Notes under the pieces: model-generated | What the model was told of the DNA's origin: nothing | Databases searched by the model: none | What the model saw: the letters and a program-made list of their open reading frames with translations, nothing else | In this document: positions 2,349 to 13,929 of the stretch, piece by piece | How positions within the stretch are numbered: the stretch's first letter is position 1 | How the letters are laid out: every line of letters starts with the position of its first letter | Translations under genes and position numbers: made by a program | Source: Hyphomicrobiales bacterium | GTDB taxonomy: Bacteria > Pseudomonadota > Alphaproteobacteria > Rhizobiales > Aestuariivirgaceae | Direction of reading: 5' to 3' | Assembly (NCBI GenBank): GCA_026987255.1 | Contig: JALSNA010000113.1 | Location: 1 to 16,362 of the forward strand | Length of the DNA: 16,362 nucleotides

Positions 2349-2445
2349 GCCTGTGGACAAAAAATCAGAAAGTTCTAATATTCCGATGAAGCAAGGGTCC
2401 TGTTTGCCGCTCTCTTCGAAGCGGCGCGAGAGGAGGCCTGAACCG

Positions 2446-2937
2446 ATGCGCAGATTTGCCTTGATCGCGGTGGGGATTTTCATCGTCTGGCTGGCGCTGG
2501 CAGGCAGGCTGACCCTGGCGGAGGTGGTCACCGGGGCGCTGGTGGCGGCCGGTGTCGCGGCCTTGTCGCGGCATCATCTGGCGCTGCTCGACGACATTCG
2601 CCTTACGCCCATGTTGCCGGTGCATCTGGCGCGCTATTTCTGGACATTCTTCATTGCGCTTGTGGGGGCCAATCTCGACGTGGCGCGCCGGGTGATCTCG
2701 CCGAAACCGGATATTCACCCGGCGCTGGTGGAGGTCAGGACGGCGCTGACCTCGGATCTGGGCAAGCTGTGGCTGGCCAATTCCATCACCCTGACACCGG
2801 GCACGCTGAGCGTGGACGTGGTGGGCGATGTCCTCAAGGTGCACTGGATCGATGCCACGCCGGGGCGCGACATGGAGCACGCAACGCGCGCCATTGCGGA
2901 GAAGTTCGAGGCCAGGCTGAAGGGGTTTCTGTCATGA
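2446..2937 (+). CDS. MrpE/MbxA-like membrane subunit
   Basis: A 163-residue membrane protein of the MnhE/MrpE family (subunit A of MBH/MBX complexes), part of the ion-translocating membrane module. Two hydrophobic segments at about 4-40 are followed by a short cytoplasmic domain with the family signature ANSITLTPGTLSVDVVGD near 113-130. ATG 2446 was chosen because AGGAGG (2431-2436) sits nine bases upstream; an in-frame upstream ATG at 2353 would add a hydrophilic 31-residue leader without a ribosome site. It is the first gene of the operon and its TGA overlaps the next ATG as ATGA. The family is clear; its exact role in the complex is inferred from homologous structures. Confidence 0.9.
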   Translation: MRRFALIAVGIFIVWLALAGRLTLAEVVTGALVAAGVAALSRHHLALLDDIRLTPMLPVHLARYFWTFFIALVGANLDVARRVISPKPDIHPALVEVRTALTSDLGKLWLANSITLTPGTLSVDVVGDVLKVHWIDATPGRDMEHATRAIAEKFEARLKGFLS

Positions 2938-3206
2938 GCATGGCGCAATTGGGCATCCTGGGCGCAACTGGCCTGCTGCTGATGCTGGCGGCGGTGGCGC
3001 TGGCGCTGTGGCGGCTGCTTTTGGGGCCATCCACGCCGGACAGGGTGGTGGCGGCCGATACCCTGGGCGTGATCACCACGGCGGGGCTGGTATGGCTGGC
3101 CAGCGCCCTGGACAATGGCATCTATCTCGATGTCGCCCTGGTCTATGCGGCCCTGGCCTTCATTGGCGTGGTGGCCATCGCGCGGGCCCTGGAGCGGCAC
3201 GAATAG
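2934..3206 (+). CDS. MrpF/MbxB-like membrane subunit
   Basis: A 90-residue protein with three predicted membrane helices, the usual size for MrpF/MnhF (MbhB/MbxB). The motif GPSTPDRVVAADTLGV at about 31-46 and the YLDVALVYAALAFIG stretch near 64-78 are typical of the family, including the conserved Asp residues in the membrane. Its ATG overlaps the stop of the MrpE-like gene, so translation is probably coupled. It should act in the Na+/H+ translocating part of the complex. Confidence 0.9.
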   Translation: MSMAQLGILGATGLLLMLAAVALALWRLLLGPSTPDRVVAADTLGVITTAGLVWLASALDNGIYLDVALVYAALAFIGVVAIARALERHE

Positions 3207-3220
3207 GGGGAGAGGGGAAC

Positions 3221-3532
3221 ATGGCTGTCATCGGCGATCTTTTCCTGGTTCTTGGCGGTCTGTTCCTGTTTCTCGGGGCGCTGGGGATCGTGCGCATGCC
3301 GGATGTCTTCAACCGCCTGCAGGCGGGCACCAAGGCGGCCACCCTGGGGGCGCTGGGCATCATTGCCGGGGTATTCTTCCATCATCCGGGCTGGTGGGCG
3401 AAGCTGATGATCATCGCCCTTTTCGTGCTGATCACCTCGCCGGTGGGGTCCTCGACCATTGCGCGCGCCGCGCTTTCGGCCGGCATCCGGCCATGGCGGG
3501 AGCGCGGCGAAGATGAAGGAGAAGGCGCATGA
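3221..3532 (+). CDS. MrpG/MbxC-like membrane subunit
   Basis: A 103-residue MnhG/MrpG (MbhC/MbxC) family protein with three hydrophobic segments. The signature RMPDVFNRLQAGTKAATLG occupies about residues 25-43, followed by a charged C-terminal tail. It has its own ribosome site (GGGGGAGAGGGG just upstream) and lies 14 bases after the MrpF-like gene, one of the few non-overlapping junctions here. Its TGA overlaps the ATG of the next gene. Confidence 0.9.
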   Translation: MAVIGDLFLVLGGLFLFLGALGIVRMPDVFNRLQAGTKAATLGALGIIAGVFFHHPGWWAKLMIIALFVLITSPVGSSTIARAALSAGIRPWRERGEDEGEGA

Positions 3533-3792
3533 CCGTGCTGGTTGCCATATCCGTTGCCGTCATGCTCATTGCCGCGATCATGGCCGTCGCCCTGCGCAAC
3601 TGGCTGGCCGCGGTGGCCGCCTTGTCGGTGGTGTCCCTGGCCCTGTCGTTCCTGTTTGCCCTGTTGCGCGCGCCGGACGTGGCGCTGGCCGAGGCGGCGG
3701 TGGGGGCGGGGCTGTCCGGCGTCCTGCTGGCCTTGACGCTGCGCCGCATTGGTCTGTGGGGCGGCCGGGAGAAGAAGGGGGAGAAGGAATGA
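3529..3792 (+). CDS. MbhD/MbxD-like subunit (DUF4040)
   Basis: An 87-residue, three-helix membrane protein matching the MbhD family, which is also the C-terminal part of MrpA. The conserved segment APDVALAEAAVGAGLSGVLL at about 48-67 contains Asp50 and Glu55; acidic residues here lie on the proposed ion path in MBH and Mrp (family knowledge). The C-terminus is strongly charged. It starts and ends with ATGA overlaps, so it is embedded in the coupled operon. Confidence 0.88.
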   Translation: MTVLVAISVAVMLIAAIMAVALRNWLAAVAALSVVSLALSFLFALLRAPDVALAEAAVGAGLSGVLLALTLRRIGLWGGREKKGEKE

Positions 3793-4532
3793 AAAGCGCT
3801 GGCGGATATGCGCCTGCCCGCATCCGGGGGCATGAAAGAAACCACGGCAAGACGGTGGCCTCCGTGCTGTTCCTCGGCGGGCTGGGGCTGATGCTGTTCG
3901 AGCTGATCTCGGCCGTGCCCTTCGGCTCGGCTCCCATGCAGGTGGGGCAGGCCATCGCCGGGGAGGCCTTTGCGCGCACCGGGGCGGACAATATCGTCAC
4001 CGCCATCTTGCTGGGCTATCGCGGCCTGGACACCTTGGGAGAGGTGACCATCCTCTTTACCGCCGCGGCGGCGGCCGGCATGGTGCTGGCCGGGGCCGGG
4101 CGCGGCGAGGCGCAAGGGCAGGAGGCGGGCTTCATCTTCCGCACCGCGGCATGGATGCTCTTTCCCTTCCTGCTGGTGCTGGGGGCCTACATCATCATTC
4201 ACGGGCACCTGACGCCCGGCGGCGGCTTTCAGGGCGGCGCCATCCTGGCGGCGGCCTTCTTCACGCCGCTGCTGGCCAGTCCGGCCAGCCCGTTCAATCA
4301 CCGGGTGGCCATTCTGGTGGAAGGCTTCGCGGGGCTGGTCTTTGTCGTCATCGGGCTTGCGGGGCTCGCGAAAGGGGCCTTTCTGACCCAGCTTTTGGGC
4401 ACCGGGACGCCGGGGGCGCTGCTGTCGGCAGGATCGCTGCCGGTGCTCTATGTGGCCATCGGGCTGAAGGTGGGCTCGGAGCTGGCCGGTCTCATGGCGC
4501 GGGTGTTCGGCGAGGGGAGTGCCAGGTCATGA
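3789..4532 (+). CDS. Fused MbhE-MbhF (MrpA C-terminus/MnhB) subunit
   Basis: A 247-residue membrane protein joining two units that are separate in MBH. Residues about 22-103 resemble MbhE and the end of MrpA, with GYRGLDTLGEVTILF (76-90) including Asp81 and Glu85. Residues about 115-243 resemble MnhB/MrpB/MbhF, with the signature HGHLTPGGGFQGG (138-150). The MBX gene set likewise lacks a separate E gene. It probably forms part of the ion-translocating module next to subunits D and G. The start codon overlaps the preceding stop. The ends of the two domains are approximate. Confidence 0.87.
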   Translation: MKSAGGYAPARIRGHERNHGKTVASVLFLGGLGLMLFELISAVPFGSAPMQVGQAIAGEAFARTGADNIVTAILLGYRGLDTLGEVTILFTAAAAAGMVLAGAGRGEAQGQEAGFIFRTAAWMLFPFLLVLGAYIIIHGHLTPGGGFQGGAILAAAFFTPLLASPASPFNHRVAILVEGFAGLVFVVIGLAGLAKGAFLTQLLGTGTPGALLSAGSLPVLYVAIGLKVGSELAGLMARVFGEGSARS

Positions 4533-4900
4533 CGGGAACGCTTCTCTATGGCGGCGCGATCGGCCTTGTGATCATCGGCCTGTATGCCATCGTGGCGCGG
4601 CGGCATCTGATGCGCAACATCTTCGGCCTGGCGGTCATGGAATCGGGGGTCAACCTGCTGCTGGCCAGCGTTGGCTACCGGCCGGGCGGGCATGCGCCCA
4701 TCCTGGTGGCGGGGGCTGCACCGGGGCCGCTGGTCGATCCCATCCCGCAGGCGCTGGTGCTGACGGCCATCGTCATCGGCTTTGGCGTGCTGGCGCTGGC
4801 GCTGGCGCTGGTGGTGCGGGTGCGGCAGGCCTATGGAACCTTGGACAACCGCGCCGTGGCCAGGCGGCTGCGGGCGGAAAACGGGGAGGCGCGGTCATGA
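4529..4900 (+). CDS. MrpC/NuoK-like (MbxG) membrane subunit
   Basis: A 123-residue protein with three membrane helices, of the NuoK/MnhC family (MbhG/MbxG). It shows GLAVMESGVNLLLASVGY at about 35-52, where a membrane Glu (E41) is characteristic of NuoK-type subunits, and DPIPQALVLTAIVIGFG near 71-87, typical of MnhC. A charged C-terminal tail follows. ATGA overlaps exist on both sides. Its expected role is proton or sodium transfer within the membrane arm. Confidence 0.9.
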   Translation: MTGTLLYGGAIGLVIIGLYAIVARRHLMRNIFGLAVMESGVNLLLASVGYRPGGHAPILVAGAAPGPLVDPIPQALVLTAIVIGFGVLALALALVVRVRQAYGTLDNRAVARRLRAENGEARS

Positions 4901-6360
4901 GCCAGTCGCTGCCTGCGATCATCTATCCGGTGGCCATCCCGCTCATGGGAGCCTTTCTTCTGCCCATCGGTGCGCGGCGCATGGCGGAACTGGCCGGACT
5001 TTTCGGGCGTATCGTGGTTCTCCTCTCCTTCTCCACGAGTCTTGCCCTGGCGGTCTCCATCTGGACCGCGGGTCCGGCCGTTTCGGCCATGGGCGGTTTT
5101 GCCGCGCCGCTTGGCATCGTCTTTTACGCCGACCGGCTGGCCATGCTCTTCCTGCTGGCGCTGAACGTGGCGGTCTTCCTGTTCTGGCCGCGCGGGCAGG
5201 GGGCGAAGGGAGGGCCTTGCACGCTCATGCTGGCGCTGCTGGCGGGCGGCTCGGGGCTGATCCTGTCGGGCGATCTGTTCAATATTTTCGTCTTCTATGA
5301 AATCACCGCGGTGGCTTCTTACGGGCTGGCGGCCAGCGGGCGCACCCATGCGGGCTTTGCCGCCGCCTTGCGCTTTCTCATCCTGGGCTCGGTGGGCTCG
5401 TCGCTGATGCTCATCGGCATAGCGCTCATCTATGCCAGGACCGGCACGCTGAACCTGGCCGATCTGTCGCGCATCGCGCCTCATGCGCTGACCGGGCCGG
5501 TGGGGCTGGCGGCCTTCATCCTGCTGCTCGCCGGGCTGGGGGTCAAGGCGGAGCTGGTGCCGCTCAATACCTGGGTGCCGGAAGTCTACGGGGCCGCGCC
5601 GGCGCGGGTCAGCGCGCTGCTGGCCGGGGTGGTCTCCAAGCTGGCCATGGTGGTGGCGCTGCGCTTTGTTGTGCAGGTCTTTCCCGGCGATGGGGCGCAC
5701 ACGGTGCTGCTGGTGGCGGGCATCCTGGGGGTGCTGGCCGGGGAGCTGGCGGCCTGGCGGGCGGGCAGCCTGATGGAGACCTTCAGCTATTCCTCCATCG
5801 CCCAGCTCGGCATGGTGGCCCTGGCCTTTTCGATTTCCGGGGCGGCGGGGATTGCCGCCGGGATCGCCCTGGCGCTGCATCACGCGGTGGTCAAGCCGGC
5901 CTTCTTCATGCTGGCGGCGCGCTGGCGCGGGCCGGTGGGCGGGCTGGCCGGGGCGGTCAAGGATTCGCCGCTGGCGGTGTGGCTGTTCGTCATCCTGTCG
6001 CTGTCGATCATCGGCATTCCGCCCTTCCCCGGATTCTGGGCCAAGTTCCTGTTCCTCAAGGCGGCCTTCGCCGCGCCCTCGGCCGGGGTATGGATCGCCG
6101 TTTTCGTCATGCTGGCGGGCACGGTGGTGGAGGCGGCCTATCTGTTCCGCGCCGTCTTGGTCTTCTTCGCTGACGGGGAGAGGGGCGGGAGCACACCGCG
6201 CTTTGCCTTCGCGCAGCTGGCGCCGGCGCTGGGGCTGGGAGCGGTGCTTCTGGCCGCCATGGTGTTCATCGCGCCGCTGGGGGCGTCGATTTCCGGCATG
6301 GCCGATGAGGCCTCCAATGCGGCGGCCATGGCCGCGCGGGTTCTGGATCGGGGAGAGTGA
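4897..6360 (+). CDS. MrpD/NuoM-type antiporter subunit (MbxH)
   Basis: A 487-residue, multi-helix antiporter-like subunit of the proton-translocating NADH dehydrogenase family (Proton_antipo_M). Residues expected for ion pumping are present: Glu135 in FVFYEITAVASYG (counterpart of NuoM Glu144), Lys217 in GLGVKAELVPLNTWVPE, and Lys333 in HHAVVKPAFF. The length is normal for MrpD. It overlaps its upstream neighbour by ATGA and is followed at once by a second antiporter-like gene, the H/H' tandem seen in MBX and not the single H of MBH. Whether it carries H+ or Na+ cannot be told from sequence. Confidence 0.92.
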   Translation: MSQSLPAIIYPVAIPLMGAFLLPIGARRMAELAGLFGRIVVLLSFSTSLALAVSIWTAGPAVSAMGGFAAPLGIVFYADRLAMLFLLALNVAVFLFWPRGQGAKGGPCTLMLALLAGGSGLILSGDLFNIFVFYEITAVASYGLAASGRTHAGFAAALRFLILGSVGSSLMLIGIALIYARTGTLNLADLSRIAPHALTGPVGLAAFILLLAGLGVKAELVPLNTWVPEVYGAAPARVSALLAGVVSKLAMVVALRFVVQVFPGDGAHTVLLVAGILGVLAGELAAWRAGSLMETFSYSSIAQLGMVALAFSISGAAGIAAGIALALHHAVVKPAFFMLAARWRGPVGGLAGAVKDSPLAVWLFVILSLSIIGIPPFPGFWAKFLFLKAAFAAPSAGVWIAVFVMLAGTVVEAAYLFRAVLVFFADGERGGSTPRFAFAQLAPALGLGAVLLAAMVFIAPLGASISGMADEASNAAAMAARVLDRGE

Positions 6361-6365
6361 CCGTC

Positions 6366-8234
6366 ATGAGCGAGCTTGATTTCCTCTTTGCCTTCGCCGC
6401 GGTGCTGATCGCCGGGGTGATGTGCTGCGGGCGCGATGGGCGCGCCGGATGGGCGGCCATGGCGGTCTACGGGGCCATGCTGGTGGCGGTCATGGCGGCG
6501 GCGGGCAAGGTTGCGGGCGGGAGCATCCCTTCGGCGCTGGGCTTTTCCGTGCTGGGCCACAAGATCGGCTGGCGCATGGACGGGCTGGGCTGGTTCTTCT
6601 CCATGCTGACGGCGGGCGCGGCCTTCTTCGCCAGCTGGTATGCGGCCGGTGAATGGGGGCGGGCGCAACCCGGGATGAAGACGCAGCACCTCTTGCTGGC
6701 GCTGAACGTGGCGGCCATGCTGCTTCTGGTCAACGCCGGCGATCTTCTGAGCCTGTTCATCGGCTGGGAGCTGGTGAGCTGGGCGGCCTTCGCCATGATG
6801 GCGCAAAAGGGCGGCCCGGCGCAGCCGGCGGCCATGCGCTACATGATCTATGCCCTGGCCGGGGCCATGGCGGTCCTTGCCGGAATCATGATCGTGCATG
6901 CCGTTACCGGCAGCTTTGCCTACAAGGATTTCGCGGCCGCTTTCGGCGCCATGTCCAGCGGCATGAAGTGGCTCCTGGCGGGGCTGTTCGCGGCCGGGTT
7001 CGGCGTCAAGATGGCGCTCATGCCCTTCCATCTGTGGCAGGCGGCGGCCTATTCGGAGACGCCGGGGGCCTCATCGGCCTTTCTCAACGCGGTCTCGGCG
7101 CGCATGGGGCTGTTTGCGCTGATTCTGGTGCTCGTCAAGGTCATGGGGCTTTCCGCCCTGGCGGGGCTGCATGTGCCGCTCATCGGCCTGAGCGCAAAAG
7201 GCCTTTTGATGTGGATTGCCGCCTTCACCATGGTGATCCCCACCTTCATCGCCCTGATGCAGACCGATGCGCGCATGCTGCTGACCTGGCACGGCATCGG
7301 ACAGGGCGGCTACATGCTGCTCGGCGTGCTGGTGGGCACCGGGCTGGGCACGGCGGGCGGATTGCTGCACGTGTTCAATTACGCCACCTATCAGATGGCG
7401 CTGTTTCTGGCGGTGACGGCGGTCATCCACCGCACCGGCACCTCCGATCTGGACCGCCTGGGCGGGCTGATCACGCGCATGCCCTGGACCTACGTGACCT
7501 TGCTCATGGGCATCATCGGGCTGGCGGGGCTGCCGCCGATGAACGGGTTCGTCTCCAAGTGGATGATCTACCGCTCCTTGCTCGATTCGGGCTCGGCCTT
7601 CCTGCTGATCTTCGCCTTCGTGGGCACGCTGGGCACCATCCTTTCGGTCTACAAGCTGATCCACAACATCTTCCTGGGGCGGCTGAGGCCGCAGCACGAG
7701 GGCGTGCGCGAGGCCCCATGGAGCATGGTGGCGCCCATGCTGGCGCTGGGCGGCATCGGTTTTGTCACCGGCTGGTTCCCCGGACTGGCGCTGAACCTGA
7801 CGGACATCGCGCAAGCGGCCATGGGGGCGCCGGAGCTGCCCCATGGCCTGGGCGGGGTGGCCACGGCGCGCGGCTCGCTGAACATGATCTGGGTGGTTTC
7901 CATCCTGCTTGTGGCCATCGGCTTTGGCGCCATCGTCTTCTATTTCCTGGGCAACCGGCGCTACGAGGTGAACCAGCTGAACAATTATGCCGGCGGGCAT
8001 TTCCTCTCGCCACAGGTGCCCTATCAGTTCAGCCATGAGTTCTATCCCGGCCTGGCGCGGGTCATCGGCCCGTGGTACCGCGGCTCCATCGTGCGCGCCG
8101 AACAGGGCATCGGCACCTTGCTCGATGTGTCGGGCGATCTGTGGCGGGGCATTTACCATCTGGCCTGGACGCCGCTCTATCTGCTGGCTGCAACGGTCAT
8201 CGCCCTTGGCTGGGCCATCATGGGAGGGATGTGA
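6366..8234 (+). CDS. Second antiporter-like subunit with C-terminal extension (MbxH')
   Basis: A 622-residue NuoL/HyfB/MbxH'-type membrane protein. Glu135 (FIGWELVSWAAF) and Lys215 (GFGVKMALMPFH) match the conserved pumping residues, but in LLHVFNYATYQMALF the HAxxK motif common in NuoL is changed to YAxxQ, leaving Gln343 at the central lysine position. From about residue 530 a tail of some 85-90 residues with a final hydrophobic segment follows; it resembles MbhI and may form the lateral helix and anchor joining the antiporter to the hydrogenase-like arm. ATG 6366 is preferred because GGAGAG lies nine bases upstream; a GTG at 6357 would sit directly on that ribosome site. Confidence 0.9.
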   Translation: MSELDFLFAFAAVLIAGVMCCGRDGRAGWAAMAVYGAMLVAVMAAAGKVAGGSIPSALGFSVLGHKIGWRMDGLGWFFSMLTAGAAFFASWYAAGEWGRAQPGMKTQHLLLALNVAAMLLLVNAGDLLSLFIGWELVSWAAFAMMAQKGGPAQPAAMRYMIYALAGAMAVLAGIMIVHAVTGSFAYKDFAAAFGAMSSGMKWLLAGLFAAGFGVKMALMPFHLWQAAAYSETPGASSAFLNAVSARMGLFALILVLVKVMGLSALAGLHVPLIGLSAKGLLMWIAAFTMVIPTFIALMQTDARMLLTWHGIGQGGYMLLGVLVGTGLGTAGGLLHVFNYATYQMALFLAVTAVIHRTGTSDLDRLGGLITRMPWTYVTLLMGIIGLAGLPPMNGFVSKWMIYRSLLDSGSAFLLIFAFVGTLGTILSVYKLIHNIFLGRLRPQHEGVREAPWSMVAPMLALGGIGFVTGWFPGLALNLTDIAQAAMGAPELPHGLGGVATARGSLNMIWVVSILLVAIGFGAIVFYFLGNRRYEVNQLNNYAGGHFLSPQVPYQFSHEFYPGLARVIGPWYRGSIVRAEQGIGTLLDVSGDLWRGIYHLAWTPLYLLAATVIALGWAIMGGM

Positions 8235-9127
8235 TGAGACTGCTCGCCGACATCGTCCTCATGCCGCTGATCGCCTTCATCACCGGGCTTTTCCTGGTGC
8301 TCATGTACCGCCGGGTGCGGGCGAAGATCGAGCGGCGCGTGGGGCCGCCCTTCTTCCAGCCGGTCTATGACATCGTCAAACTGTTCGCCAAGAAGACGCA
8401 GATTTCCCATGGCGTCATGCACGATCTGTCCATCGTGCTGCTGCTGGGCGGCTATATCACGGCGGAAATCTTCCTGCCGGTGCCCGGCTTCAAGGGGCTG
8501 GCGGAGGAGGGAGATCTGCTGACCCTGATCTACATCATGATGGTGCCCATGCTGGGGCTGGCGCTGGGGGTGGGCTCGTGCGCCAATCCCAATGGCTCCA
8601 TCGGCATTTCGCGCGCCCTGACGGCCATGCTGGCCTATGACGTGCCGCTGGCGGTGGCGATCATCGGCGCGACCATGACCTATGGCACCACCAACCTGGT
8701 GGAGATCGTGCGCATCCAGCAGGAAGGCGGCATGGCCACCTGGGGGATCGCCACCATGCCGCTTCTGGCCATCGGCGGTTATCTGGCGGTGCACGGCATG
8801 TTCGGCAAGGAGCCTTTCGAGATCTACATCGCTCCGGCGGAGATCGCCACCGGACCGATGGTGGAGATGAGCGGCAAATACATGGGGGCGCTGTTCATCA
8901 TGCAGTGTTTCCAGCTCTATACCATCGGGGTGCTTTACGTGACGCTGTTCCTCGGCGGGGGGGAGAACTGGCCGCTGTTCCTGATCAAGGTGGCGGCGGT
9001 GGTCTTCATTTCGGTGGCGGTGACCAATGTCTACGGGCGCTACCGCACCGACAAGGTGGTGCGCTGGATGTGGAAATGGCCCACGGGCATCGCCCTGCTG
9101 GGGCTGGCTCTGGTGATGGCCAAATAA
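8234..9127 (+). CDS. NuoH-like membrane anchor subunit (MbxM)
   Basis: A 297-residue membrane protein of the NuoH/HyfC/MbhM family, linking the membrane arm to the peripheral electron-transfer arm. Visible motifs are GPPFFQPVYDIVKLFAKK at about 38-55, near the region that contacts the quinone-site-like cavity, and KEPFEIYIAPAEIATGP near 194-210, the charged loop that in NuoH leads to the proton channels. The start overlaps the previous stop by one base (TGATG). An 18-base gap with its own ribosome site separates it from the NuoB-like gene, where the soluble-arm genes begin. Confidence 0.92.
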   Translation: MRLLADIVLMPLIAFITGLFLVLMYRRVRAKIERRVGPPFFQPVYDIVKLFAKKTQISHGVMHDLSIVLLLGGYITAEIFLPVPGFKGLAEEGDLLTLIYIMMVPMLGLALGVGSCANPNGSIGISRALTAMLAYDVPLAVAIIGATMTYGTTNLVEIVRIQQEGGMATWGIATMPLLAIGGYLAVHGMFGKEPFEIYIAPAEIATGPMVEMSGKYMGALFIMQCFQLYTIGVLYVTLFLGGGENWPLFLIKVAAVVFISVAVTNVYGRYRTDKVVRWMWKWPTGIALLGLALVMAK

Positions 9128-9145: not shown

Positions 9146-9922
9146 ATGACAGACAAACCTCTCAAGAGCCATGTGCGCCCGCCGCAGGACACCATGCCCG
9201 GCGGGGCCGGGCAGGGCTGCCCGGCGCCCGATGCGCAAACGCGCTCCATCTGGCGCAGGATCATGGATGATTTCGCCGATCACTGCCGGGCGCGCTCCCT
9301 GTTCGTGCTGCATTACTGCACCGGCTGCGGGGCCATCGAGCTGCCGCCGACCATTACCTCGCGTTTCGACATGGAGCGGGTGGGCATCACGCCGATGGTG
9401 ACGCCGCGGCAGGCGGACATCCTGCTGATCACCGGCTATCTGTCGTTGAAGACGCTGAAGCGCGTCATTCTCTCCTACGAGCAGATGCAGGGGCCGAAAT
9501 ACGTGCTTGGCTTCGGCTCGTGCACCATCAACGGCGGCATGTACTGGAACTCCTATGCCACCATGAAGCGGCTGGATCAGTATATCCCCACCGATCTGTT
9601 CATCGCCGGGTGCATGCCGCGGCCGGAGGCGGTGCAGCAGGTGCTGCTCAAGCTCATCGAGGATATCGATGCAGGCCGCGCCAATGCCTGGCAGGACTAT
9701 TACCGCAACTACGATTTCTACCTGGGCAACCAGCAAAGGCTTTTCGGGGCGGGCTGGAACACGCCCACCGACGTGATCGGCGAGGCGCGGCACTATGGCT
9801 ATTACGGGCCGGGCACGGAAGGGGAGCACACCCGCCTGCTGGCCGAGGGGGGCGGCTCGGCGGCCCGGCTGGCGCATGCGGAATATCCCTCCACGGCACT
9901 GACGGGGAGGATCAAGTCATGA
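9146..9922 (+). CDS. NuoB-like Fe-S subunit (MbxJ)
   Basis: A 258-residue cytoplasmic subunit homologous to NuoB, the hydrogenase small subunit and MbhJ. It should hold the proximal [4Fe-4S] cluster next to the NuoD-like active site. Ligands are C58-x2-C61 (HYCTGCGAIE), C126 (GFGSCTING) and C156 (IAGCMPRPEA). The CxxC spacing is that of the hydrogenase/MBH/MBX branch, not the adjacent CC of complex I NuoB. About 35 N-terminal and 70-80 C-terminal residues extend beyond the conserved core; the tail is rich in Tyr, Gly and Asn. AGGGAG precedes ATG 9146. The TGA overlaps the next start as ATGA. Confidence 0.93.
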   Translation: MTDKPLKSHVRPPQDTMPGGAGQGCPAPDAQTRSIWRRIMDDFADHCRARSLFVLHYCTGCGAIELPPTITSRFDMERVGITPMVTPRQADILLITGYLSLKTLKRVILSYEQMQGPKYVLGFGSCTINGGMYWNSYATMKRLDQYIPTDLFIAGCMPRPEAVQQVLLKLIEDIDAGRANAWQDYYRNYDFYLGNQQRLFGAGWNTPTDVIGEARHYGYYGPGTEGEHTRLLAEGGGSAARLAHAEYPSTALTGRIKS

Positions 9923-10446
9923 GCATTCCCGCCAGACTCAACGAGGTGCTGAACGAATTGCCGGCCATCCAGGCGCGGCCGGCCGGGGCGCGGCGCGTGC
10001 GGGTGGATGTGGCGCCGCAAGGGCTGCCGGCGCTGCTGGAGCTGCTCAAGGGGCGGCTGGGGTTCATTCACCTGTCGGCCATTTCCTGCGTGGACTGGAT
10101 CGAGGATGGGCAGTTCGAGCTGGTCTATCACGTCTGGTCGCACGAGATGAAGCTGCTGGTCTCGTGCCATGTGCGCATTGCGCGCGAGCCTGGTGTCTAT
10201 GTCTCGGTGCACGACATTCACGAGCCGGCCGGGTTCTTCGAGCGCGACATCCACGAGATGTTCGGGGTCCATTTCGACGGGGCGCCGAGCATGGAAAAAT
10301 TCATCCTCACCAGCTGGGAGGGGCCGCCGCCCATGCGCAAGGACTTCAACACCCGCAAGCACGTGGAGGAGACCTTCGAGTGGGTGGATTACCGGCCGGA
10401 CTGGCTGAAGGACATCGAGCGCAAGGGGGGAGGCATCGAATCATGA
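9919..10446 (+). CDS. NuoC-like 30-kDa subunit (MbxK)
   Basis: A 175-residue soluble subunit of the complex I 30-kDa family (NuoC, HycE N-terminal part, MbhK/MbxK). It has no cofactor ligands and helps assemble the NuoD-like subunit. The conserved ERDIHEMFGVHFDGAP is at about 112-127, followed by EGPPPMRKDF typical of the C-terminal family signature. It overlaps the NuoB-like gene before it and the NuoD-like gene after it, both by ATGA. Separate C and D genes agree with the MBX arrangement. Confidence 0.92.
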   Translation: MSIPARLNEVLNELPAIQARPAGARRVRVDVAPQGLPALLELLKGRLGFIHLSAISCVDWIEDGQFELVYHVWSHEMKLLVSCHVRIAREPGVYVSVHDIHEPAGFFERDIHEMFGVHFDGAPSMEKFILTSWEGPPPMRKDFNTRKHVEETFEWVDYRPDWLKDIERKGGGIES

Positions 10447-11588
10447 CCACGCCGCAGGTTCCCGATCCCGCAACGCTTGCTCCTTCGGAGGAATACGATC
10501 TCTATTTCGGTCCCAACCATCCGGGCATCGAGGGCAACTATTCGGTGCGGGTGCGCCTGAAGGGGGATGTGATCTGCCAGGCGGTGGCCGATGGCGGCTA
10601 TCTGCACCGGGGGTTCGAGAAGATCATGGAGGACCGCCTGTGGGTGCAGAACATCGCCCTGGTGCCGCGCATCTGCGTGCCCGATCCGGTGCCGATGGAA
10701 GAGTCCTATGCGCGCGCGGTGGAGATGATCGGCGGTCTTGAGGTCCCCCTGCGGGCGCAATGGATCCGGGTGCTGATGCTGGAGCTGTCGCGCATCTGCG
10801 CGCATCTGTTCACCTTCGGCGGCAATGCGGCGACCATCGGGCTTTACACCAACATGTTCTGGGGCGTGACCATGCGCGATCTGTTCCTCGACATTTTCGA
10901 GGAGATCACCGGGGCGCGCATCTATCACATCTACATCACCCCCGGCGGGGTGCGGCGCGATCTGCCCGAGGGCGTGCTGGAGCGCATAGAGGCCCTGCTG
11001 GTGGAGCTTGAAGAGCGCATGCCGCAATTCGAGGATCTGTTCTTCAACAATGCGGTGGTCATCGACCGGGCCACGGGCACGGGCAGGATGAGCGCCGAAG
11101 AGGCGCTGGCGTGGGGGGTGACGGGGCCCAACCTGCGCGCCACCGGGGTGGCCTCGGATGTGCGCCGGGACGATCCCTATCTTGTCTATCCGCAGGTGGA
11201 TTTCGACATCGTGACGGAAACCGGCGGCGATGCCCTGGCGCGCATGATGGTGCGCAAGGGGGAGGTGGTGCAAGCGGTGAAGATCGTGCGCCAGGCCATT
11301 GCGGCGCTGCGCAAGGTGGGCGGGCCGGTGCGTTGCGAGCTGCCCAATCCGCTGGCCTGGGATCTGCCCGCCGGGGATGCCTATGCGCGCACCGAAAGCT
11401 CCAAGGGCGAGCTTGGCTTCTACATCGTCTCCAATGGAGGGCCGCGGCCCTACCGGGTGCACGTGCGCGGGGCCTCCTCCATGCACGCCGTGCAGGTTCT
11501 GGAAAAACTGCTCGTGGGCAGCCGCATCGAGGACGTGGCGCAGATCATGTTCTCGCTCGATGCCTGCCCGCCGGAGGTGGACAGATGA
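10443..11588 (+). CDS. NuoD-like large subunit lacking the NiFe site (MbxL)
   Basis: A 381-residue member of the complex I 49-kDa/hydrogenase large subunit family. It shows GPNHPGIEGNYSVRV (23-37) and YLHRGFEKIMEDR (53-65). The two positions where hydrogenases bind nickel-iron through CxxC read C78-V-P-D81 and C375-P-P-E378, so each keeps one cysteine but loses the other to an acid. H2 chemistry is therefore unlikely. In the MBX/MBS branch this cavity is proposed to handle polysulfide or disulfide (family knowledge); in complex I it handles quinone. Which applies here is open. ATGA overlaps occur at both ends. Confidence 0.92.
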   Translation: MTTPQVPDPATLAPSEEYDLYFGPNHPGIEGNYSVRVRLKGDVICQAVADGGYLHRGFEKIMEDRLWVQNIALVPRICVPDPVPMEESYARAVEMIGGLEVPLRAQWIRVLMLELSRICAHLFTFGGNAATIGLYTNMFWGVTMRDLFLDIFEEITGARIYHIYITPGGVRRDLPEGVLERIEALLVELEERMPQFEDLFFNNAVVIDRATGTGRMSAEEALAWGVTGPNLRATGVASDVRRDDPYLVYPQVDFDIVTETGGDALARMMVRKGEVVQAVKIVRQAIAALRKVGGPVRCELPNPLAWDLPAGDAYARTESSKGELGFYIVSNGGPRPYRVHVRGASSMHAVQVLEKLLVGSRIEDVAQIMFSLDACPPEVDR

Positions 11589-13417
11589 GCGACATTGCAC
11601 CGAAATACAAAGGCTCCATGCTGCGGCCGCTGAAGGCGCTGTCCTTCCTGTTCCGCGAGCCGGCGACGCTGCCGATGAGGCCGCGCCCGGCGGCCAAAGT
11701 CTATCGCGGCTTTCATCTCAACGACTGGGAAAAGTGCGTCGGTTGCGCCACCTGTCAGCAGATCTGCGACAATGACGCCATCCGCATGGTGCACATTCCC
11801 GCTCTGCCCTCCGATCCGGCCAAGGGGATCCGGCCGCGCCGCCCGGCCATCGATTACGGGCGCTGCTGCTGGTGCGCGCTGTGCGTGGATATCTGCCCCA
11901 CCGGCTCGTTGTCCATGTCGCGCGAATATATCCACGTGTCGCGTGATGTGGACAGCTATTTCATCCTGCCCGATGAAGAGGGCATGCACGGGGTGCGCTA
12001 TCCGCAGGGCTGGGCCAAGGACGAAAACGCCGATCTGCTGGATCTGAAGCGCCAGGAGATGCCCGAGGAGCCGCCGCAGGAGCGGGCGGACAATTTCAGC
12101 GAAATCTGCGAGGGATACGATCCGCAGACGGCCATGCTGGAGGCCTCGCGCTGCATCCAGTGCGGCATGTGCCATGACGCCTGCCCGGCCCACATGCATG
12201 CGCCGGAATACATCCGGGCCATCTTCGAGGGGGATTTCGAGAAATCGGTGGCGGAAATCTACCGCACCAACCCGTTTCCGCAGGTGTGCGGGCGGGTCTG
12301 CACGCACCGGTGCGAAACCGCCTGCTCCATCGGCAAGCGCGGCGAGCCGGTGGCCATCCGCTGGCTGAAACGGGCGGCGGTGGACAACGTGCCGCAGGAC
12401 AGGACGATCGCCATTGCCCTGAAGGACAAGGCAAAAACGAAAACCGGCAAGCGCGTGGCGATCGCCGGGGCGGGGCCTGCGGGCCTCACGGCGGCTTTCG
12501 ATCTGGCCAAGCTGGGGCACGAGGTCACCGTCTATGAGGAAAAGCCCAGGCCGGGCGGCATGATGCGCTATGGCATCCCGGAATACCGGCTGCCCTATGA
12601 GCGGATCGATGCCGATATCGCGGTGATCGAGGCGGCGGGGGTGAAGATCCGGTGCAACACGAAGCTGGGGCGCGATGTCACCATGGCGCAGCTCAAGGGG
12701 CAGGCGGATGCGGTCTTGCTGTCCACCGGGCTGAACAAGGGACGCTCGACGCGCATTCCCGGCTCCGATCATCCGCAGGTGCGCGCGGCGGTGGATCTTC
12801 TGGCCAGGATCACCCTGGGCGAGGCATTCGATATTCCGGCTTCGGCGGTGGTCATCGGCGGCGGCAACGTGGCCTTCGACATAGCCCGCTCGCTGGCGCG
12901 GCTGCAGCGCCGGGCCTTCGGCAAGGTGGAGGTGACGGTGCTGGCCCTGGAAGAGCGCGACAAGATGCTGGCCGATGAAGAAGAGGTCATCGAATCGGCG
13001 CAGGAGGGCGTCAAGCTGATCAATGGCCGCGGGCCGAAGCAGGTGGTGATCGAAGGAGATGCGCTCAAGGGGCTGGAAACGGTCAAGTGCCTGTCGATTT
13101 TCGATGAGCAGGGGCGCTTCCATCCCAGGTATGACGAGACGGATGTGATGTTCCATCCGGCGCAGATGGTGATCGAGGCCATCGGGCAGATGTCCGATGT
13201 CTCCTTCCTCGGCGAGGATTTGACCGAGCAGCTGGAATGGAGCCGCGGGCGCATCAGGATCGACGAGGCCGGGCGCACATCGGTGCCCTGGCTGTGGGCG
13301 GCGGGTGACCTGGTGAAGGGGCCGGACGTGATTTCGGCCATCGCCACGGGTCATGCGGCGGCGGCCAGCATTCATGCCGCCCTCATGGGGGAGACAGAGG
13401 CAAGGGAGGCCAAATGA
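11585..13417 (+). CDS. Ferredoxin-type MbxN subunit fused to a GltD/NfnL-like flavoprotein
   Basis: A 610-residue fusion. Residues about 45-110 form a NuoI/MbhN-like domain with two [4Fe-4S] motifs: C51-C54-C57-C61 and C94-C97-C100-C104. After a linker, residues about 175-605 resemble the GltD/NfnL small-subunit family: an Fe-S domain with C190, C193, C196, C200 and C235, C239, C243, C247; an FAD dinucleotide fold GAGPAG (295-300) with PGGMMRYGIPEYRLP (323-337); a second nucleotide fold GGGNVAFD (425-432); and AAGDLVKGPDVISAIATGHAAA (572-593) of the FAD site. The stretch 453-461 reads LALEERDKM where NADPH-using relatives usually have YRR, hinting at NADH. It should transfer electrons between NAD(P)H or ferredoxin and the NuoB-like cluster. 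Confidence 0.93.
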   Translation: MSDIAPKYKGSMLRPLKALSFLFREPATLPMRPRPAAKVYRGFHLNDWEKCVGCATCQQICDNDAIRMVHIPALPSDPAKGIRPRRPAIDYGRCCWCALCVDICPTGSLSMSREYIHVSRDVDSYFILPDEEGMHGVRYPQGWAKDENADLLDLKRQEMPEEPPQERADNFSEICEGYDPQTAMLEASRCIQCGMCHDACPAHMHAPEYIRAIFEGDFEKSVAEIYRTNPFPQVCGRVCTHRCETACSIGKRGEPVAIRWLKRAAVDNVPQDRTIAIALKDKAKTKTGKRVAIAGAGPAGLTAAFDLAKLGHEVTVYEEKPRPGGMMRYGIPEYRLPYERIDADIAVIEAAGVKIRCNTKLGRDVTMAQLKGQADAVLLSTGLNKGRSTRIPGSDHPQVRAAVDLLARITLGEAFDIPASAVVIGGGNVAFDIARSLARLQRRAFGKVEVTVLALEERDKMLADEEEVIESAQEGVKLINGRGPKQVVIEGDALKGLETVKCLSIFDEQGRFHPRYDETDVMFHPAQMVIEAIGQMSDVSFLGEDLTEQLEWSRGRIRIDEAGRTSVPWLWAAGDLVKGPDVISAIATGHAAAASIHAALMGETEAREAK

Positions 13418-13929
13418 TGCCCAGACATGGCGAAGGGCACGAAAGCGCCCATGACAAGCTGAAAAGGGCGCAGACCCTGGAGGAAATCCTGGAGACCGCC
13501 CTGGGTTTCGAGGCCACGGCGCGGGATTTCTATGCGGAGCTGGCGGGCCGGGTCTCCAAGCCCCTGCGCGAGCTGGTGGAGGAGCTGGCGGAGGAGGAAA
13601 AGGAGCACTACCGGCTGTTTTCCGAACTGAAGGCCAATCCGGACATTGCCGGGGCGCTCAAGGAGCTGGTGGAGCGCCCGGCGGAGGATCACAGGTTTTC
13701 CGACTTCATCCAGAAGCCCGATCTGGGCGAGGCCCCGGACGATCAGGCGATCTTGCAATATGCCCTGGCGCGCGAGGATGCGGCGGCCAAGCAATATGCG
13801 GCCCTGGCGCAAAGCACGCCGGAAGGGCCGGTGCGCGATTTGTTCACGCATCTGGCCAAGGAGGAGCTGGCCCACAAGGCGGAGCTGGAGAAGCGCTATT
13901 ACGAGATCGTCCACTCCGGCGGCGTGTGA
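13414..13929 (+). CDS. Rubrerythrin-like diiron (ferritin-like) protein
   Basis: A 171-residue, mostly helical soluble protein. Two repeats of the diiron pattern are visible: Glu33, then E62-x2-H65 (EEEKEH), and Glu121, then E151-x2-H154 (EELAH). This four-helix ligand set fits the rubrerythrin/ferritin-like superfamily. No rubredoxin domain (paired CxxC) is present, so it needs another electron donor if it acts as a peroxidase. Its ATG overlaps the TGA of the flavoprotein gene, with GGGAGG upstream, so it belongs to the operon. It may remove peroxide or oxygen to protect the Fe-S complex and AOR; iron handling is an alternative. Confidence 0.85.
   Translation: MMPRHGEGHESAHDKLKRAQTLEEILETALGFEATARDFYAELAGRVSKPLRELVEELAEEEKEHYRLFSELKANPDIAGALKELVERPAEDHRFSDFIQKPDLGEAPDDQAILQYALAREDAAAKQYAALAQSTPEGPVRDLFTHLAKEELAHKAELEKRYYEIVHSGGV

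Follow-up and report, generated by a model that had tools for sequence, protein, structure and literature searches.

Gene content of the locus

The stretch of DNA analysed here (the window) is the entire 16,362-base contig JALSNA010000113.1 from the assembly of a Hyphomicrobiales bacterium (GCA_026987255.1; assembly size 2.50 Mb, 529 contigs, completeness 98.8%, contamination 2.9%). Its plus strand carries, at 11585..13417, a gene for a 610-residue protein in which a ferredoxin-type domain like those of NuoI and MbsN is fused to a GltD-type flavoprotein, the architecture of family PRK13984, as seen in the translation and in profile and structure matches. The best explanation for this fusion protein is that it serves a bacterial respiratory complex of the MBS/MBX type as its distal electron-transfer subunit.

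The fusion gene is the 13th of 14 genes, most of them overlapping, that form a run on the plus strand. The run opens with genes for MnhE-like (2353..2937, PF01899), MnhF-like (2934..3206, PF04066), MnhG-like (3221..3532, PF03334), MbhD-like (3529..3792, PF13244), MbhE/MnhB-like (3789..4532, matching both MnhB and MbhE) and MnhC-like (4529..4900, Oxidored_q2) proteins. Two antiporter-like subunits follow, the first MbsH-like (4897..6360) and the second MbsH'-like (6357..8234), then a NuoH/MbsM-like membrane anchor (8234..9127, NADHdh), a NuoB/MbsJ-like subunit (9146..9922), a NuoC-like subunit (9919..10446, Complex1_30kDa) and a NuoD/MbsL-like subunit (10443..11588). The fusion comes next, and the run closes with a ferritin-like, rubrerythrin-type protein (13414..13929, PF02915). 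This operon contains no nuoI besides the fusion, and scans of the window for Rfam families and tRNA genes found none.

Structure and conservation of the fusion protein

Frequencies reported here refer, unless otherwise stated, to a set of 80 related loci, and residue counts mostly to the 79 or 80 fusion sequences drawn from them. The single chain begins with a NuoI/MbsN-like domain for two [4Fe-4S] clusters (residues 51-104, 11735..11896), whose ligands C51, C54, C57 and C61 and C94, C97, C100 and C104 are each conserved in 78 or 79 of 79 sequences, and continues into a complete GltD/NfnL-like module. The GltD-type Fe-S domain of that module (residues 167-270, 12083..12394, matching Fer4_20) keeps C190, C193, C196, C200, C235, C239, C243, C247 and K262 in 79 of 79. 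Motif conservation marks the FAD Rossmann fold (residues 290-330, 12452..12574), which comprises GAGPAG and the start of GGMMRYGIPEYR, the latter extending to R335; alignment places the nicotinamide Rossmann fold at 12845..12952, from GGGNVAFD to A454-L455-E456, the last being the site of the YRR motif in NADP(H) enzymes. An AlphaFold2 model of the protein has a good fold, with an NfnL fold spanning residues 150-602 and including both the FAD and the nicotinamide folds. Matches to the GltD part occupy the structure-search lists, and the best match of the NuoI half in the PDB is chain N of the Pyrococcus furiosus MBS complex (6u8y_N).

An earlier note on this DNA, made from the sequence alone, had proposed that an MbxN-like domain and a GltD/NfnL-type module share one frame, which would attach nicotinamide chemistry directly to the electron entry point of the complex. 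This architecture is borne out. Relatives with the two parts as separate genes were not seen: a fused open reading frame with coverage of at least 80% is present in 79 of the 80 loci, and a homolog cluster 96% identical to the protein also exists, which together rule out an assembly error or chance as the origin of the fusion. The NCBIfam profile NF010590 (PRK13984, "putative oxidoreductase") matches essentially the whole chain (residues 10-603) with 855 bits, below its curated cut-off of 946; it also matches all 55 aligned members of the fusion family, and its cut-off is exceeded in one of 14 control genomes.

The fusion belongs to an MBS/MBX-type complex

The nuoD gene lies no more than 600 bp upstream of the fusion gene in 65 of the 80 loci, and three further loci have less than 400 bases of upstream sequence. 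All 12 upstream genes are present in 41 of the 47 loci that have nuoD and at least 9 kb upstream. Pairwise distances between fusion proteins correlate with those between NuoD proteins (r 0.86, 63 sequences), a value that shared ancestry alone could yield. One locus (L024) has antiporter genes followed by the fusion, and none of nuoH, nuoB, nuoC and nuoD is matched anywhere in its 15.8 kb.

The PDB comparison covers five subunits, namely the NuoI half of the fusion, NuoB, NuoD and the two antiporter-like proteins, and each is closest to P. furiosus MBS (6u8y) among solved structures (for the latter four, chains J, L, H and X, respectively). With this resemblance and the linkage to nuoD, the fusion is a member of an MBS/MBX-type complex. 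The same domain pair, which the earlier note suggested looking for beside mbx-like genes in other genomes, does stand there.

The NuoB-like subunit aligns with MbsJ without a gap over 168 residues, and its C58, C61, C126 and C156 have exactly the spacing of MbsJ C25, C28, C93 and C123, with no tandem cysteines. In MBS, the proximal cluster is described as bound by C28, C93 and C123, with C25 beyond reach (passages in PMC7684303). The corresponding C61, C126 and C156 are Cys in all 49 NuoB-like homologs compared, and the C58 position is variable (Cys in 36, Gly in 13), as expected for a three-cysteine proximal cluster; neither of the two remaining cysteines is invariant. In the NuoD-like subunit, the complex I quinone residues H38 and Y87 are replaced by E30 and V79, and so are absent, as in MBS. 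In the 63 sequences compared, position 30 varies among E, T, S, P, A and V, and V is invariant at position 79. Two of the four NiFe cysteine positions are kept, C78 and C375, aligned with MbsL C85 and C385; both are Cys in 46 of the 63 sequences, including that of the window. A second clade, made up of Rhodobacterales and some Chromatiaceae (L050, L051, L056, L063, L065-L071, L073, L074 and L078), has Tyr at the position of NuoD C375 and antiporters only about 30% identical; its substrate may differ. Among the charged antiporter residues named in the part of PMC7684303 that deals with MbsH and MbsH', inspection of the printed alignments by eye finds MbsH E138, K250 and K393 and MbsH' E128, K217, H336 and K399 kept.

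Cofactor preference of the flavin module

The YRR motif of NADP(H)-dependent enzymes is found in none of the 80 fusion sequences. Its site reads ALE in 57, SLE in nine, AID and CLE in five each, AME in two, and VLE and ALQ in one each, so that the third position is acidic (E or D) in 79 of 80. The genome also holds a GltD-type paralog that retains YRR. In DsrL, a GltD-type relative of the fusion, the kinetics of three enzymes link the presence of YRR to NADP(H) and a missing YRR to NAD(H) (PMC7596348). By this precedent, the absence of YRR together with the acidic residue suggests that the fusion prefers NAD(H), which is our predicted nicotinamide substrate.

Residues around the proximal cluster of the module resemble those of a relative reported to have lost bifurcation. 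The position of the NfnL glutamate ligand is Lys262 in 79 of 79 sequences, and in the printed alignment this lysine meets K170 of the StnC-like chain 9bov. For StnC, PMC10482914 reports that K170 binds a cluster, as an unusual ligand, next to a flavin whose ability to bifurcate has been lost. R335, aligned with NfnB R201 (the arginine contacting flavin N5), is likewise present in 79 of 79; StnC has the same arginine without bifurcating (same source). Cys235 is invariant among the fusion homologs and Ile, Leu or Thr in three aligned relatives, and on this pattern may be a further cluster ligand. No NfnS-like gene occurs among the genes of the window, the remainder of the genome not having been searched for one.

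A ferritin-like partner

The last gene of the run encodes a protein with E33, E62xxH65, E121 and E151xxH154, which we take to be its six diiron ligands. A ferritin-like match occurs no more than 700 bp behind the fusion in 62 of the 80 loci, in three of them (L053, L055, L057) as a fused tail, and all six predicted ligands are present in 52 of 54 separate homologs. Fused ferritin-like C-termini occur in L048, L053, L054, L055, L057 and L058, which are from spirochaetes (L054 is titled only "bacterium"). Long frames lacking the flavoprotein motif in L001, L003, L043 and L073 were discounted as fused tails. Longer proteins also appear among the relatives listed for a Halanaerobium fusion protein, where 43 of 120 have at least 740 residues, eight of these with a precomputed rubrerythrin domain. 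For example, P0169 has a Pfam rubrerythrin match at residues 608-746, behind the flavoprotein, and P0173 (748 residues) has none, its tail matching the ferritin-like protein of the window with E 2.4e-7.

Among 51 tails of at least 120 residues (from these 43 proteins and eight loci, duplicates not removed), 23 match the ferritin-like protein of the window at E <1e-3 and seven keep all six ligands. The Halanaerobium and Bipolaricaulota loci have no ferritin-like match. Because so few tails keep the ligands and these loci have no match, the diiron site is not essential. The simplest reading is that the ferritin-like protein is a structural partner, in which oxygen-exposed lineages would keep a redox-active or protective diiron site.

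Distribution and physiological setting

By their record titles, carriers of the fusion include sulfur oxidizers, tubeworm symbionts, purple bacteria, spirochaetes and Halanaerobium. Among 40 related genomes (own genome included, ten of the same genus), the full-length fusion is found in the own genome and two others of the same order, and in none of the ten from the same genus. A search based on nuoB recovers only the own genome among 398 from the phylum (E 1e-70) and among 385 from the class (E 1e-42); by this search the complex is rare, with the reservation that such cut-offs may miss a more divergent clade.

A dsrA survey of 53 fusion-bearing genomes (52 from the set of 80 loci, plus the own genome) finds a match over the cut-off in 35, the own genome included. 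Its contig C297 has dsrA together with a dsrB-like match and, at a greater distance, a GltD-like gene that is probably dsrL, and the organism is likely a Dsr-type sulfur oxidizer. In the symbiont of Riftia, a co-expression network described in PMC11636981 gives a "putative Mrp-Mbx complex" first neighbours in common with genes of the reductive tricarboxylic acid cycle, not with those of the Calvin-Benson-Bassham cycle; both hydrogenases and the sulfur-globule genes share first neighbours with the former cycle there. Related tubeworm symbionts carry the fusion (L021, L022, L023, L035).

Flanking genes

Ahead of the run, on the minus strand (155-2041), a domain match identifies a divergent aldehyde:ferredoxin oxidoreductase (AOR). 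Contig C131 of this genome carries a 60-residue C-terminal AOR fragment that is 93% identical. None of the 80 loci has an AOR match, their upstream flanks mostly stopping near mnhE and linkage beyond that point not having been sought. Behind the run are a gene of the inositol-phosphatase family and then one of glycoside hydrolase family 3.

Proposed function

Comparison of sequences and structures establishes that the two parts are fused, that this fusion is conserved and lies in the operon described, that the catalytic residues are of the MBS type and that the nicotinamide pocket is a non-YRR one. We build on these to propose, with a confidence only somewhat better than even, that the complex is a reversible, ion-pumping NADH:sulfane-sulfur oxidoreductase. 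NAD(H) would exchange hydride with the FAD of the GltD-like module, and electrons would pass through the two [4Fe-4S] clusters of that module and the two of the NuoI-like domain, in that predicted order, to the three-cysteine proximal cluster of the NuoB-like subunit. There polysulfide, or a sulfane-sulfur compound with a similar S-S bond, would be reduced or formed, and the two antiporter-like and the Mrp-type subunits would couple this reaction to ion movement. Of the three roles suggested in the earlier note, an NAD(P)H-fed sulfur or disulfide reductase is the one that fits best; its sulfur chemistry stands as a proposal, and its nicotinamide half narrows to NAD(H).

The standard potential of the S0/sulfide couple is only slightly above that of NADH. 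Little energy is thus to be had from passing electrons from NADH to sulfur, and the direction of the reaction may depend on the host. We can sketch, as a speculation that we consider rather unlikely in its full form, how hosts would differ. In autotrophic sulfur oxidizers, inward flow of Na+ or protons would drive electrons from sulfide, persulfide or polysulfide straight to NAD+, a form of reverse electron transport that does not involve quinone, and the ferritin-like subunit would protect the open proximal cluster against oxygen. Anaerobic fermenters, Halanaerobium for one, would run the enzyme forward, as NADH-driven sulfur respiration.

Several observations weigh against a sulfane-sulfur enzyme of this kind, the sulfur substrate being its least secure step. 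The small driving force is one. The link to Dsr is loose, because dsrA is missing over the cut-off in 18 of 53 carriers (five spirochaetes, six out of nine Rhodobacterales, two each of Halanaerobium and Bipolaricaulota, and three Gammaproteobacteria, with fragments in two of the latter, the genomes behind L008 and L010) and present in 14 of 37 non-carriers; among the 40 relatives it is found in 17, including all three with the fusion, and the association of the fusion with Dsr and sulfur is confounded by kinship. Retention of NuoD C78 and C375 proves nothing about sulfur, since mutants of MBS, as reported in passages of PMC7684303, show MbsL C85 and C385 to be dispensable and not catalytic. 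Position 375 is moreover Tyr in 14 of the 62 NuoD relatives, and the substrate may differ between clades. In the antiporters, MbsH E219 has become Lys, MbsH H330 Leu and MbsH' K248 Arg.

Linkage to the complex has its exceptions too, as 12 of the 80 loci have upstream sequence with the fusion not beside nuoD. Ten of these (L005, L009-L012, L014-L016, L019, L026) come from what we take, as with some other families named here from locus titles, to be Beggiatoaceae/Thiotrichaceae. Six of seven genomes with a detached fusion hold an MBX-type nuoD, 68-70% identical, on another contig. On these six stretches nuoD is alone in one and accompanied by nuoB and nuoC in five (in one also by nuoH), and none has a ferredoxin-subunit match, two of the stretches ending within about 250 bases of nuoD. 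Thiomargarita nelsonii shows no MBX-type nuoD, only a 35% match; it does have a nuoH, 74% identical, about 7 kb from its fusion gene.

Alternative explanations

The alternative that survives best, though we judge it improbable, is one already raised in the earlier note, an ion-pumping ferredoxin:NAD+ oxidoreductase in which ferredoxin docks and electrons exit through the GltD module. MBS receives electrons from ferredoxin through MbsN (PMC7684303), P. furiosus Mbx is described in a passage of PMC6349859 as a ferredoxin:NADP+ oxidoreductase, and a gene for AOR adjoins the operon here. This topology, however, would put ferredoxin and NADH at the same end of the electron wire, and transfer between them could skip the chamber coupled to the pump. 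The AOR neighbour is not tied to the fusion, and was dismissed as a dedicated partner, since homologs with 53-75% identity occur in eight of the ten same-genus genomes, which lack the complex (G001-G005, G008-G010).

A somewhat more doubtful view makes the fusion and the ferritin-like protein an NADH-dependent pair that scavenges peroxide or oxygen, with the membrane complex merely a second partner. The frequency of the ferritin-like gene behind the fusion, the ligands kept in nearly all separate homologs and the joining of the two proteins into one chain in other loci all speak for such a pair, as does the fact that the ferritin-like gene is still close behind the fusion in eight of the ten Beggiatoaceae/Thiotrichaceae loci away from nuoD. 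Scarcity of the ligands among fused tails and the lack of any match in the Halanaerobium and Bipolaricaulota loci speak against it, and a scavenging pair leaves the NuoI-like domain and its MbsN position unaccounted for.

We give little credence to a quinone-reducing enzyme like complex I with GltD replacing NuoEFG: the B, C, D, H, I and antiporter families are common to complex I, but the equivalents of the quinone residues H38 and Y87 are E30 and the invariant V79. Least probable of all is the flavin-bifurcating variant put forward in the earlier note, in which the FAD of the GltD module would split the electrons of NADH between the complex and a low-potential carrier, as the module has the Lys and Arg of the flavin site at which StnC is reported not to bifurcate, no NADP(H) motif and no NfnS-like partner in the window.

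Relation to known systems

The MBS/MBX complex and modules of the GltD type were already known, and so was the fused family, in the form of a profile without a name. As far as our literature search goes, the placement of the PRK13984 family at the MbsN position, the prediction of NAD(H) and the ferritin-like partner are new; the search found no description of an MbsN-GltD fusion, most subscription papers being outside its reach. The complex of the window shares with P. furiosus MBS/MBX its subunit types, three-cysteine cluster, lost quinone residues, two antiporters and Mrp-type subunits, and differs in that MbsN there is a stand-alone, ferredoxin-fed protein without a GltD module. We know of no ferritin-like subunit in MBS. 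NfnL/NfnB of the NADH-dependent ferredoxin:NADP+ oxidoreductase has the same fold as residues 150-602, with two N-terminal clusters and the FAD and nicotinamide folds; unlike it, the fusion has neither YRR nor the Glu ligand, is joined to a membrane-complex subunit and has no NfnS partner in the window. AegA and YgfT (PRK12769, PRK12809) also have ferredoxin-type cysteines ahead of GltD, and their profiles match along residues 47-601, but with scores far under the cut-offs (208 bits against 1003 and 165 against 1154); to our knowledge they have no MBX operon. PRK13984 itself, matched over its full length, catalogues the architecture already, although under no other name than "putative oxidoreductase" and with a cut-off that the protein of the window does not reach.

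Two other relatives show GltD-type modules in comparable service. In StnC and NfnABC-type GltD-NuoG fusions (8oh5, 9bov), GltD feeds a complex-I-type Fe-S chain and has Lys at the proximal cluster, but in StnC the fusion partner is NuoG and not NuoI, the enzyme is NADPH-linked and a bifurcating module accompanies it (PMC10482914). DsrL-1 of sulfur oxidizers is likewise a GltD-type Fe-S flavoprotein of sulfur metabolism with a non-YRR pocket that prefers NAD(H); its ferredoxin domain, however, is C-terminal, and it works with rDsrAB instead of a membrane complex (PMC7596348).

The same catalytic and pumping core as in MBS here bears a hard-wired module, predicted to use NAD(H). The known MBS/MBX complexes are fed by ferredoxin and come mainly from hyperthermophiles. 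If our interpretation is right, GltD instead of NuoEFG would be a second way for the complex I family to acquire NADH oxidation, and the NADH pool, the ion-motive force and sulfane sulfur would be directly linked. It would also provide a testable function for the PRK13984 family and probably for the "Mrp-Mbx" complex of tubeworm symbionts.

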